A model generated the notes under the pieces. It was not told where the DNA came from. It saw only the letters and a program-made list of their open reading frames with translations, and made no database searches. This document shows positions 11,814 to 15,611 of a DNA stretch of 64,000 nucleotides, piece after piece; position 1 is the stretch's first letter; each line of letters begins with the position of its first letter. The translations under genes and the position numbers were made by a program. The DNA is taken from positions 1 through 64,000 of the forward strand of contig JAFUXI010000071.1 of assembly GCA_017470995.1 (NCBI GenBank), read 5' to 3'. This DNA comes from Spirochaetales bacterium (lineage in GTDB: Bacteria; Spirochaetota; Spirochaetia; Sphaerochaetales; Sphaerochaetaceae).

Positions 11814-12506
11814 CTAGAAGTACTTTCTGAGCTTCAGGGCATCCCTGAACTCGAAAAAACGGTCGAAGAACCTGGAGCACAGGCCTATGATGGCTCCGTT
11901 GATCAGGGCGCAGACGATGGTGCCGACCTTGACCCCCTTGAAGACCCAGAGCCCGAAGAAACAGAAAGAAAGGATCACGCCGACAAGACAGCTGCAGATA
12001 TCGTAACCTGTCTTGAATCTATGGATCTCCACATTGAATTTTGCCGAGACCTCCTTTACGAAGAGCTCGTAGACCTCCGGCGCGATGTAGGTGTGGAAGA
12101 ACAGCGAGATCCCGATGGCGCACAGGAACATTCCCAGGGCGTAGTACAGGATTCGGGCAATCATGCTCTCTCTGGGAATACCGGCTACCGCTGCCATGCA
12201 GAGGTCAAGCACTATGCCGTAGATGAAGGCCGTGACGAATGAGAATAGGTAGCTGATCTTGAATCTGCGCAGCACCAGCATCATCACAACAAGCAGTACC
12301 GCCTGCAATGTGTATTCCGCCATTCCGAAGGAGAAGAAGCTCCAGGTCTGGACGAGCTTGAGGTGAAGGATGTATGCCGGAGCGACGACCATGGAGACTC
12401 CGAAGTCGACCATCTCCATGAAGGCGACTCCGAAGGCCACGAATACTATGCCTAAGATATAAGCAAGCTCTGAATAGAATATTTTCTTCTGCCTGTCTGT
12501 TTCCAA
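11814..12506 (-). CDS. YitT/YczE-like membrane protein
   Basis: The 230-residue protein has about five to six hydrophobic helices. It resembles YczE/YitT or DUF6198 membrane proteins, whose transport role is not established. It lies between mgtE and msrC with short gaps on both sides, hinting at co-expression with magnesium uptake. The sequence has no motif that fixes a substrate, so the family call is from overall pattern only. Confidence 0.6.
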   Translation of the reverse strand: METDRQKKIFYSELAYILGIVFVAFGVAFMEMVDFGVSMVVAPAYILHLKLVQTWSFFSFGMAEYTLQAVLLVVMMLVLRRFKISYLFSFVTAFIYGIVLDLCMAAVAGIPRESMIARILYYALGMFLCAIGISLFFHTYIAPEVYELFVKEVSAKFNVEIHRFKTGYDICSCLVGVILSFCFFGLWVFKGVKVGTIVCALINGAIIGLCSRFFDRFFEFRDALKLRKYF

Positions 12507-12516
12507 AACGGTGTCC

Positions 12517-13908
12517 TCAGAACAAAACTGCGGTAGCGATTTTCAGATAAACCAGAAGCGAGAGGGCGTCGACGATGGTTGTGATGAACGGACTTGCCAT
12601 CACGGCCGGGTCGAATCCGAGCTTCTTTGCCACAAGAGGCATGGTACATCCGATAAGCTTTGCCATGATGATGGTCAGCGACATTGTCAGGCTGACTACC
12701 AGAGCTACCAGCGGGAAGGAGTAGGTAGTCGCTTCGGCCAGATTTCCGAACAGAAGTCCGTCGATGAGCATGACCTTTCCGAAACAGACTGCGCCGAGGG
12801 CGAGGCCGCACATGAGGGCAGTTGAGAATTCTTTGAGAAGGACCTTTCCCAGATCCTTCACTTCAAGCTCTCCCAGCGATATCGCACGGATTACCGTGAC
12901 TGAGGACTGGGAACCGGAGTTTCCGCCGGTATCCATCAGCATCGGGATGAAGGCCGTAAGGATTACAAGCTGGGCAAGGGAGTTCTCGAAGCTCGTGATT
13001 ATCAGGCCGGTGAAGGTTGCCGAGATCATCAGCAGCATCAGCCAGGGGACTCTGTGCTTGAAGAGTTCCCACGGGGATGTTCGCAGGTAGGACTTCTCGT
13101 AAGGAGTCTGAGCGGACATGATCGTGATATCTTCGGTTGCCTCTTCTTCCATGACGTCCATGGCATCGTCGAATGTGATGATACCGACCATTCGGTTGTC
13201 CCTGTCCACGACGGGCAAGGCCAGGAAGTTGTATTTGGAGAGCTGCTTGGCAACCTCTTCCTGGTCCATCAGGGTGCTCACCGTGATTACGTTGGTGGTC
13301 ATCAGGGTTTCGACCGTGACGCTCTGGTCCTTGGCAAGCATCAGGTCCTTAGCCGATACAAGACCGAGGATGCGGTTGAAACGCGAGAGTACGTAGCAGG
13401 TGTAGATCGTCTCCTTGTCTACTCCGGTGTCGCGGATCTTCTGGAAGGCATCGCTGACTGTCATGTCGGCGGAGAGCGATACATACTCGGTGGTCATGAT
13501 CGATCCGGCCGAGTTCTCCGGGAACTGCAGGATCTCGTTGATTTCGCGCCTTCTGTCGGGTGTGACGTGTCTGAGGATTCTGGATACTACGTTTGCAGGC
13601 ATTTCCTCGACGATGTCCGCAGCATCATCTATATAGAGTTCATCGAGGACCTGCTTGAGCTCCGTGTCGGAGAATCCGCGGATCAGGATTTCCTGGTTGT
13701 CGGGTTCCATCTCGACGAAAGTATCCGCTGCCAATGCCTTCGGAAGCAGGCGGAACATGATGGGAAGCTGATCTTCCGGAAGCTCGTCGAAGATCGATGC
13801 GATATCCGACGGGTTCATTGTGATCAGAACATCCTTGACGGTTGAGTATTTCTTGTTTTCAACCAATACCTTCAATGTGTCTTCAACACTGACGTTATGC
13901 TGTGCCAT
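12517..13908 (-). CDS. mgtE: Magnesium transporter MgtE
   Basis: The 463-residue protein has the MgtE N domain with superhelical repeats (residues 1-130), two CBS domains (about 135-260) and five membrane helices. The pore signature PMLMDTGGNSGSQ lies near residue 320. MgtE is a homodimeric Mg(II) channel gated by Mg(II) bound to its cytosolic domains. A 26-codon leader ORF with a strong ribosome-binding site lies 67 nt upstream on the same strand. CTGAA and TTCAG form a small hairpin touching the mgtE ribosome-binding site. Regulation by leader translation is an inference from that layout. Confidence 0.93.
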   Translation of the reverse strand: MAQHNVSVEDTLKVLVENKKYSTVKDVLITMNPSDIASIFDELPEDQLPIMFRLLPKALAADTFVEMEPDNQEILIRGFSDTELKQVLDELYIDDAADIVEEMPANVVSRILRHVTPDRRREINEILQFPENSAGSIMTTEYVSLSADMTVSDAFQKIRDTGVDKETIYTCYVLSRFNRILGLVSAKDLMLAKDQSVTVETLMTTNVITVSTLMDQEEVAKQLSKYNFLALPVVDRDNRMVGIITFDDAMDVMEEEATEDITIMSAQTPYEKSYLRTSPWELFKHRVPWLMLLMISATFTGLIITSFENSLAQLVILTAFIPMLMDTGGNSGSQSSVTVIRAISLGELEVKDLGKVLLKEFSTALMCGLALGAVCFGKVMLIDGLLFGNLAEATTYSFPLVALVVSLTMSLTIIMAKLIGCTMPLVAKKLGFDPAVMASPFITTIVDALSLLVYLKIATAVLF

Positions 13909-13975
13909 AACAATATCTCCCTGAACTTTTCAGAGTTGACGAGTATTAGTGCAGATTAACCTTTGCTTGCCGGGT

Positions 13976-14056
13976 TCAGCGTTTGATAACGGAGGACTCC
14001 AGATCAGGCACAGGGTCGGAATCTGCGAATAATCTAGTACTACTGCCAGCTTCCAT
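13976..14056 (-). CDS. Putative mgtE leader peptide, Asp/Pro-rich, 26 residues
   Basis: An ATG at 14056 follows AAGGAGG with 7 nt spacing, one of the best ribosome-binding sites in the window, and the frame closes at a TGA 67 nt before mgtE. Residues 11-20 read ADSDPVPDLE, alternating acidic residues and Pro. Enterobacterial mgtL, which controls the Mg transporter gene mgtA, also encodes an acidic/Pro-rich leader, and such peptides destabilise ribosomes when Mg is low. There is no sequence kinship and no published case known to me for mgtE, so function is inferred from position, signal and composition. Confidence 0.6.
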   Translation of the reverse strand: MEAGSSTRLFADSDPVPDLESSVIKR

Positions 14057-14084
14057 GACAAGTCCTCCTTGAATTAGAAATAAC

Positions 14085-14133
14085 GGGCGTCTGCCCAAGA
14101 CTGAATTTTACCAGTTTGGCAGTCGGCTTTCAA
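14085..14133 (-). promoter_or_regulatory. Promoter and 5' hairpin of the mgtE leader transcript
   Basis: On the minus strand TTGAAA (14133-14128), a 17-bp spacer and TAAAAT (14110-14105) form a sigma-70-type promoter. The predicted transcript would start near 14098 and begin with a GGGC/GCCC hairpin (14096-14085), about 30 nt before the leader ATG. Confidence 0.6.
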
Positions 14134-14161: not shown

Positions 14162-14214
14162 TTGACAAAAAAGCGGGTCTTGGTGTATGATATAACCAAG
14201 TAAACCAGTAGGTT
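14162..14214 (+). promoter_or_regulatory. cysK promoter with Rrf2-type operator
   Basis: TTGACA (14162-14167), an 18-bp spacer and TATGAT (14186-14191) are followed immediately by AACC-N13-GGTT (14194-14214) with GTAAA inside it. A matching AACC-TA-GTAAA-N5-GGTT arrangement precedes the Rrf2 regulator gene that ends 3 nt beyond cysK, so this is probably its operator. Confidence 0.65.
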
Positions 14215-14247
14215 TAATAGAGATTGAATTGGCCAAGGAGGTTTGTC

Positions 14248-15180
14248 ATGGCTAGAATTTATGAGAATATCACGGAACTTGTGGGCGGAACGCCCTTGGT
14301 CAAGGTCAGCAACTACTCGAAGGCGCACGGCCTAGAGGCTACGGTCCTTGTCAAGCTCGAGTACCTGAACCCGGCAGGCAGCGTAAAGGACAGAATCGCC
14401 AAGGCGATGATCGAAGATGCGGAGAAGAGGGGCCTTCTGAAGGAAGGGTCGGTTATCATAGAGCCGACCAGCGGCAACACCGGAATAGGACTCGCGGCAA
14501 TAGCGGCATCCAAGGGATACAGGGCAATCCTGACAAGGCCCGAGACGATGAGCGTCGAGAGAAGGAACCTTCTGAAGGCCTATGGAGCAGAAATTGTACT
14601 CACGGAAGGGGCAAAGGGCATGAAAGGAGCCATCGCAAAGGCCGATGAGCTTGCCAAGGAGATTCCCGACAGCTTCATCCCCGGTCAGTTCGTCAACCCG
14701 GCAAACCCGGCTGCACACAGGGCAACCACAGGACCTGAAATCTGGAACGATACCGATGGAAATGTCGATTTCTTCGTAGCAGGAGTAGGTACCGGCGGAA
14801 CGCTTTCCGGAGTCGGAGAGTTCCTGAAGTCCCAGAAGGCATCGGTCAAGGTCGTTGCCGTCGAGCCCGAGACATCGCCTGTTCTTTCAAAGGGCGTTGC
14901 GGGACCGCACAAGATCCAGGGAATAGGTGCAGGCTTTGTTCCCGACACGCTGAACACCTCTATCTACGATGAGATCATTCCTGTTTCCAACGAAGATGCC
15001 TTTGCAACAGGCAAGGAAGTCGCAAGACGCGACGGAGTTCTGGTAGGCATCTCCTCAGGAGCAGCCCTGTTTGCGGCAACACAACTTGCCAAGAGGCCTG
15101 AGAACAAGGGAAAGACGATAGTGGTTCTTCTGCCCGACACAGGCGATCGCTATCTTTCAACCCCGCTTTTCACTGACTGA
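14248..15180 (+). CDS. cysK: Cysteine synthase (O-acetylserine sulfhydrylase)
   Basis: The start at 14248 has AAGGAGG 7 nt upstream; the protein is 310 residues. The PLP Lys lies in NPAGSVKDR (about residue 43). The phosphate and substrate loops [11 protein letters not shown] and [10 protein letters not shown] are normal, and the C-terminus has the usual [10 protein letters not shown]. It makes cysteine from O-acetylserine and sulfide in the cytoplasm. Control by the adjacent Rrf2/CymR-like regulator is likely from the shared promoter site. Confidence 0.95.
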
Positions 15181-15182
15181 AT

Positions 15183-15611
15183 TCAGATACTGTAGTCGTA
15201 GCTTTCCATCTGGCGGTCAAGGATATCCTGCAGCGTGATGCCTTCGAGGTAATCGTTGACAACGGAGTACAGGCCCTGCCAGATGGGCAGAAGCTGAGCA
15301 TCGGCAGCCGCGGCAGCCTCGGAGGGATCGTCCAGATTCGGAATTGGCGCCAGGCTGCCTTCTGCTATCTTGAGGATTTCAGCTACGGTATAGGCTTCCG
15401 GGGCCCTTGCAAGCATATAGCCGCCCTGGGCTCCGCGTATTGTCTTCAGGATCTCCGGCCTGTTCAGAAGGGCCACAATCTGTTCGAGGTATTTCTTTGA
15501 GATATTCTGGCGTGAGGCGATGTCCTTGAGGGCGATATAGCCTTCCTGCCTGTGCTCGGCAAGGTCCACCATAACACATAGAGCATAGCGGCCTTTTGTG
15601 GAAATCTTCAT
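15183..15611 (-). CDS. Rrf2-family transcriptional regulator, CymR-like
   Basis: The 142-residue protein starts MKISTKGRYALCVMVDLA, the typical Rrf2 opening. A winged helix follows, with recognition helix NISKKYLEQIV and wing RGAQGGYMLAR. The three Cys that hold the Fe-S cluster in IscR/NsrR are missing; only one Cys near residue 12 is present. That favours a CymR-type sensor of sulfur status acting with CysK. Its own upstream region carries AACC-N12-GGTT, so autoregulation is expected. It converges with cysK. Confidence 0.88.
   Translation of the reverse strand: MKISTKGRYALCVMVDLAEHRQEGYIALKDIASRQNISKKYLEQIVALLNRPEILKTIRGAQGGYMLARAPEAYTVAEILKIAEGSLAPIPNLDDPSEAAAAADAQLLPIWQGLYSVVNDYLEGITLQDILDRQMESYDYSI

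Follow-up and report, generated by a model that had tools for sequence, protein, structure and literature searches.

A short open reading frame and alternative RNA pairings upstream of mgtE in gut spirochaetes and Clostridia: a candidate translational attenuator

The RNA leader of the magnesium transporter gene mgtE carries a conserved short upstream open reading frame (uORF) and, on the basis of its predicted pairings and of accessibility modelling, we favour the reading, at a probability of roughly 0.55, that it acts as a translational attenuator of mgtE coupled to translation of the uORF, low intracellular Mg2+ being the likely signal. Sequence comparison indicates that this RNA element recurs upstream of mgtE in gut spirochaetes and in Clostridia without an M-box. 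Its main feature, which goes beyond the account given in the initial annotation of the locus, is a set of alternative base-pairings that involve the uORF.

Organization of the mgtE leader

Within the window, by which we mean the whole 64,000-nt stretch of DNA that was analysed, mgtE occupies positions 12517..13908 of the minus strand, the strand on which all of the leader features lie. The gene, which we propose to be the regulated one, encodes a complete MgtE protein of 463 aa, with an MgtE_N domain, two CBS stretches and the MgtE channel domain recognized by Pfam. Upstream, a putative sigma-70-type promoter can be read at 14105..14133, with a -35 element TTGAAA (14133-14128) and a -10 element TAAAAT (14110-14105) separated by a 17-nt spacer; the pattern is recognizable in several congeners, and transcription would be expected to start near 14098. 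At the 5' end expected for the transcript lies a small hairpin, P0 (TGGGC-AGAC-GCCCG; 14084..14097), followed by a Shine-Dalgarno sequence, AAGGAGGAC (14062..14070, with AAGGAGG at 14070-14064), and by the uORF itself (13976..14056; MEAGSSTRLFADSDPVPDLESSVIKR), whose 26 codons run from an ATG at 14056 to a TGA stop at 13978-13976. The uORF begins some 40 nt past the promoter behind a strong Shine-Dalgarno, and its stop codon is separated from the mgtE ATG (13908) by 67 nt. Direct reading of the minus strand confirms the initial annotation in this respect, which had placed a 26-codon ORF with AAGGAGG between a promoter and mgtE, 67 nt ahead of the latter.

Directly 3' of mgtE, and on the same strand, a gene with a TTG start (11814-12506) encodes a DUF6198 membrane protein and is probably cotranscribed with mgtE. 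On the other side, a cysK-like gene (14248-15180, plus strand; Pfam PALP) is divergent from mgtE, and behind it lies the gene for an Rrf2-family regulator (15183-15611, minus strand). Upstream of cysK, the sequence TTAAACCTACTGGTTTACTTGGTTATA (window 14180-14230) is kept in two congeners (G008 and G006) and looks like a candidate Rrf2/CymR/IscR-type operator.

Conservation of the leader ORF within Sphaerochaeta

MgtE is present in all 11 genomes of the congener set, 10 of which, including the genome from which the window is taken, also have the leader DNA. The comparison with relatives that had been put forward with the initial annotation gave a positive outcome: the start, the frame and the segment MEAGSS..FAD[SP]DPVP are kept in the ten Sphaerochaeta genomes. 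Both the alignment and the codon table of the congeners reveal codons 1-17 to be almost fixed, as MEAGSS(x)RLFAD[SP]DPVP, the changes including synonymous ones (GTG/GTT, CCT/CCG and GAT/GAC), gaps of one codon and an exchange of ATG for GTG at the start. The centre reads D[SP]DPVP or DPDPVP in 10/10, and the most divergent congener retains MEAGSSSLFADPDPVP. Given that D[SP]DPVP is kept while synonymous changes occur, the peptide probably matters in Sphaerochaeta. The second (C-terminal) half of the uORF drifts even inside the genus.

Three of the congeneric loci (L086, L087 and L088, from G005, G007 and G009, respectively) have about 100 additional bases separating the 5' hairpin (GGGC..GCCC) from the Shine-Dalgarno of the uORF. 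These bases hold a conserved sequence, ATTCGAGCAAGCTTTAGTTCGATGCCGAATTG, and are possibly a further leader element.

Distribution beyond the genus

Other genomes, for the most part of Clostridia with MgtE 60-68% identical, supplied 80 mgtE loci, and counterpart uORFs were found at about 74 of these. They have strong Shine-Dalgarno sequences and lie 116-300 nt upstream of mgtE, and typical peptides are MDAGSSSGTPVGRS.., MDGGSTSGTAGRSFDAE.. and MDYRSSNTDAGADRT... In other spirochaete genera, the uORFs encode MESADPGPSRNAFLRKAF, MDSSDPGPGRQSFLRNAC, MKPSSRSSNLDYHLCGFPHI and MDKCGRCSSVSEDPLSSRSFLQFS.., and also MPDGSSGNPASGQSLNAVPPPVNF; overall, the promoter-proximal uORFs range from 18 to 36 codons in length. 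The Clostridia share the codons GGC CGA AGT, which are in frame 0 in 52/53 leaders even though they stand nearer to or farther from the start by whole codons, and this is more than pairing alone would demand. Moreover, 83 of 84 leader ORFs have an acidic residue at position 2-3, versus 42 of the 295 further ORFs that these leaders contain, a comparison in which the Clostridia count is biased upward by a uORF finder that scored D/E at position 2, and in which the Sphaerochaeta leaders were not so selected. The rule did not prevent the finding of Treponema-type leaders whose acid is at position 3 (MGDGSS and MPDGNS).

As short ORFs are common, one might suspect that this one arose by chance in a 5' untranslated region of the ordinary kind, but frame, peptide and helices are conserved across two phyla. 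Since start, frame and peptide are kept in ten congeners, and the architecture recurs in other genera and in the Clostridia, we regard this explanation as excluded.

The element is not coextensive with the gene. No leader was seen at the loci read for Treponema-type mgtE with MgtE 41-51% identical, and it is missing, too, from some members of the family whose MgtE is 61-66% identical; relatives as close as the latter imply that the element has been gained and lost. When 36 carrier genomes were searched with a covariance model, strong, full-length matches lay only upstream of mgtE, the remaining ones being weak and covering short fragments. What looked like a second copy (L163; G086 contig 35, 1-104) was discarded, as it is a piece at a contig end and a near-exact match to the leader of another species (L042); the contig is probably a stray one in a metagenome-assembled genome.

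The MgtE proteins of the spirochaete carriers are 60-68% identical to those of gut Clostridia and 41-51% identical to those of several other spirochaetes. Judging from these identities, mgtE and its leader have probably been exchanged between phyla in animal guts.

Alternative pairings of the leader RNA

Three pairings can be drawn downstream of P0. The first, H1, joins the Shine-Dalgarno region of the uORF to the 3' end of the same uORF: in the window, strand a, GGAGGAC (14068-14062), which is part of the Shine-Dalgarno, pairs with strand c, GTCCTCC (13991..13997), within the end of the ORF. The equivalent strands are GGAAACG/CGTTTCC in Clostridia, and GGGAACG/CGTTCCC, CGCACAAG/CTTGTGCG, CACACAAG/CTTGTGTG and GGAGGAATGA/TCATTCCTCC in others. 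H2 is formed between the 5' half of the uORF (strand b, 14020..14048, including TGGC at 14048-14045 and GCAGATT at 14026-14020) and a block past its stop codon (strand d, 13935..13957, including AATCTGC at 13957-13951 and TACTCGTCA at 13945-13937), and it reaches 24 bp in Oscillospiraceae-type leaders. H1 and H2 cross, giving a pseudoknot topology. H3, which is an alternative to H2, pairs the mgtE Shine-Dalgarno with the H2 block or its edge; in the window it is a hairpin, CTCTGAA/TTCAGGG (13919..13935), apparent both on direct reading and in the minimum-energy fold, and strand d continues into its 5' arm. A hairpin touching the ribosome-binding site of mgtE had been described in the initial annotation as CTGAA/TTCAG; it is indeed present, but is larger, comprising 7 bp and covering the GGG of the mgtE Shine-Dalgarno, GGGAG (13921-13917). 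At least 4 nt are common to the best duplexes of H2 and H3 in 70/89 leaders, and 5 nt in the window.

In a partner-swap test on 89 leaders, each leader's own pairing was the stronger for H1 (z -12.1), H2 (z -13.2) and H3 (z -6.1), versus z values of -2.3, -0.2 and 1.6 for three control pairings; such tests remove relatedness only partly, and the control pairs, under equal relatedness, are mostly near zero. An earlier swap test on 82 leaders agrees with this result. Across 31 aligned Oscillospiraceae-type leaders, 86.7% of the cells are paired (84-91% for the H2 helices), as against 35-50% when the strands are slid. Both partners have changed in 15 of the 32 pairs, as against 5.5 in shuffles. 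Within the genus, 95.7% of the cells are paired overall (H1, 100%; H3, 95.6%), and there are too few changes for any covariation to have been seen inside Sphaerochaeta; as the helices hardly vary there, the support for the window's own helices comes from the comparison with other genera. The P0 region, too, is more stable than shuffles (88 leaders; mean z -1.18, p 2.6e-9), and the relatives have hairpins of differing sequence in the same place.

These observations bear on two alternative explanations. The conserved N-terminal residues and the strong Shine-Dalgarno might point to a free small protein with MgtE or something else as its target, the helices being incidental. However, the C-terminal half is unconserved even in the genus, the uORF always adjoins mgtE, in cis, and the reading frame of the Clostridia uORFs slips relative to strand c of H1, which falls in frames 2, 0 and 1 in 32, 5 and 3 leaders, respectively. 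On account of the drifting C-terminal half and the slipping frame, we reject this explanation as very improbable. Alternatively, the H1/H2 pseudoknot could itself be a Mg2+-binding riboswitch that controls either mgtE or the uORF, the latter being secondary. An elaborate, covarying RNA of pseudoknot topology in front of a Mg transporter gene, and where the M-box is missing, is what such a switch might look like, and the Mycobacterium M-box that controls a uORF offers a precedent (PMC12810186). Against this, the conserved residues are in codons and helices, with no shared unpaired core and with loops that differ between lineages, and the 5' half of the uORF keeps its reading frame; moreover, under the logic of H2 and H3, a pseudoknot stabilized by Mg2+ would activate the importer when Mg2+ is high, which is the wrong sign. 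We, therefore, consider a riboswitch unlikely.

Predicted coupling of uORF translation to mgtE

Over 82 leaders, modelling a ribosome on codons 6-14 of the uORF takes the predicted accessibility of the mgtE Shine-Dalgarno from 0.35 down to about 0.22; the value is lower in 43-46 of these leaders and higher in 1-3. Blocking the 5' half of the uORF also frees other strands, and so the 5' strand of H2 was shuffled as a second test; accessibility then went down in 44/89 leaders and up in 12/89 (p 1.6e-5). The shift appears in 5-6 of eight congeners; for the window sequence, the predicted accessibility is unchanged, at 0.21 when free, 0.21 with strand b blocked and 0.21 with strand b shuffled.

In the attenuator that we propose, the start, body and end of the uORF would all be wired into competing RNA helices. 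Efficient translation of the uORF would place ribosomes over its 5' half and block H2, such that H3 would shut the mgtE start (OFF). Were initiation or early elongation to fail, H2 would form and take the anti-Shine-Dalgarno strand, and mgtE would be translated (ON). Low intracellular Mg2+ would be felt by ribosomes on the N-terminal segment, with its early acidic residue; in Sphaerochaeta, this sensing segment would also include AD[SP]DPVP. Additionally, H1 would keep the uORF start closed between rounds, thereby favouring the ON state.

A variant that places control at transcription would have translation of the uORF decide whether Rho, or a pausing polymerase, brings about a stop in the spacer before mgtE, the helices exposing or hiding a Rho site. 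No intrinsic terminator (a stem followed by a T-run) was recognized on reading the leaders, and so this would need Rho, for which there is both the mgtL-mgtA precedent of Salmonella and Escherichia coli (PMC11282234) and, in the window, a C-rich spacer past the uORF stop. It does not, however, require H3, yet the H3 pairing is conserved (z -6.1), and the spacer is short, at 67 nt in the window. Transcription attenuation of this kind strikes us as rather unlikely.

The signal and the acidic/proline centre

That the attenuator would respond to Mg2+ is suggested by analogy, from the identity of the downstream gene and the mgtL and mgtQ precedents. It is suggested further by the confinement of strong full-length matches to mgtE and by the absence of the M-box from 42/42 genomes of the carrier lineages (11/11 congeners and 31/31 other carriers).

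The peptide itself gives a mixed picture. The initial annotation had drawn attention to the alternation of acidic residues and proline in ADSDPVPDLE, and this centre, besides being kept in all ten congeners, has an echo in several other spirochaete genera, where DP recurs (MESADPGP, MDSSDPGP and SEDPLSS). It is absent, however, from most of the Clostridia carriers (MDAGSSSGTPVGRS...) and from the spirochaete genus with MKPSSRSSNLDYHL, and, as a universal feature of the leader, it was rejected on the basis of the former. Most Clostridia peptides are rich in Gly, Ser and Thr and have just one acidic residue, close to the start; the Gly/Ser-rich ones do not look ribosome-destabilizing. Destabilization by acidic residues and proline is, therefore, not a general principle of the leader, unless an acidic residue close to the N-terminus is enough for it. 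It may be how spirochaetes meet a wider requirement for early translation of the uORF to be fragile; alternatively, the signal may differ between lineages.

A uORF attenuator could also have a signal different from Mg2+, for instance charged tRNA for CGA or AGT, translation capacity, or another ligand that arrests the nascent chain. It is common for leader peptides to sense amino acids or drugs; in the Clostridia group, moreover, the codons CGA AGT never vary, and the peptide there is Gly/Ser-rich rather than acidic and proline-containing. On the other hand, CGA AGT also lies inside H2, so that pairing can keep these codons; they are missing from the Sphaerochaeta leaders; and mgtE is the only gene found behind the element. 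We accord a signal other than Mg2+ a low probability, and retain the Mg2+-responsive attenuator as the preferred reading.

Implications and comparison with known systems

Many gut Clostridia and spirochaetes have mgtE without an M-box; how such bacteria match Mg2+ uptake to need is a matter on which we found no description in the literature searched. If our reading is right, a widespread leader-peptide attenuator of the MgtE transporter would provide a ribosome-based alternative to the M-box. It would also offer a natural test of whether the use of the ribosome as a Mg2+ sensor arose repeatedly with different peptides, and the enterobacterial Mg leader peptides would be one of several independent solutions and not a peculiarity of a single order. 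As Rfam contains neither the uORFs nor the helices, they form a new element to annotate.

The M-box (ykoK, RF00380) is a leader RNA found upstream of mgtE-type Mg2+ transporter genes in Bacillota. Unlike it, the present leader is without the conserved M-box core and has a uORF; neither the window nor 13 sampled leader loci gave a match to RF00380 above the gathering score. Among the families of Rfam 15, none scored above this level in the leader, the best sub-threshold match being of 14 nt and at chance level. In Mycobacterium tuberculosis, an M-box controls the uORF rv1805A (PMC12810186), and the two cases are alike in having a leader RNA associated with Mg2+ homeostasis and a small uORF with structure at its ribosome-binding site; they differ in that the sensor is an aptamer in the mycobacterial case, whereas none is recognizable in the mgtE leader. 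A further structured leader candidate, the Thioalkalivibrio mgtE motif (SRC-65-1), places the mgtE start in its P4 stem and is reported only in Thioalkalivibrio, with no mention of a uORF in the passage that describes it (PMC11109978), again unlike the leader described here. Other leader peptides or uORFs of mgtE were not found in the literature, and, with subscription journals and preprints outside the scope, this is a provisional result; the sequence and structure family is apparently undescribed before.

Parallels are found also in enterobacteria, and the reading given in the initial annotation, supported in part as a whole, holds as regards a leader in front of a different transporter family: the gene is for MgtE and not for MgtA or MgtB, and the ORF looks translated and under selection. 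The mgtL leader brings about Rho-dependent termination before mgtA (PMC11282234). Like this leader of Salmonella and E. coli, with its EPDP peptide, the mgtE uORF is promoter-proximal and precedes a Mg2+ transporter gene; the Sphaerochaeta version has a D/P-rich segment and, in the model, finished translation would likewise mean OFF. The mgtE uORF differs from mgtL in that there is no peptide similarity, the acidic/proline motif is missing in most carriers, and there is pairing with the Shine-Dalgarno of mgtE.

The Salmonella mgtQ ORF encodes 8 aa before mgtB, inside the mgtCBR operon, and acts at translation through alternative stems and acidic codons (Asp2 and Glu5) (PMC8092293). Here too, albeit in predicted pairings, a short ORF overlaps stem-loops that are alternatives to one another, and a Mg2+ transporter gene has its ribosome-binding site hidden in one of them. 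Whereas mgtQ has 8 codons and precedes a gene for a P-type ATPase, the ORF before mgtE is promoter-proximal and has 18-36 codons, its own Shine-Dalgarno pairs with its 3' end, and long-range base-pairing between ORF and spacer gives a pseudoknot topology. The polarity also differs: in mgtQ, the ribosome on the ORF helps to open the ribosome-binding site, whereas in our model it would close it. Taken as modelled, the leader would, nevertheless, work like the known uORF attenuators of Mg2+ transporters. Tentatively, and at slightly less than even odds, we suggest that it represents an undescribed class of Mg2+-responsive leader-peptide attenuator, spanning Spirochaetota and Bacillota/Clostridia, which would replace the M-box before mgtE and would sense Mg2+ via the ribosome on a short ORF.
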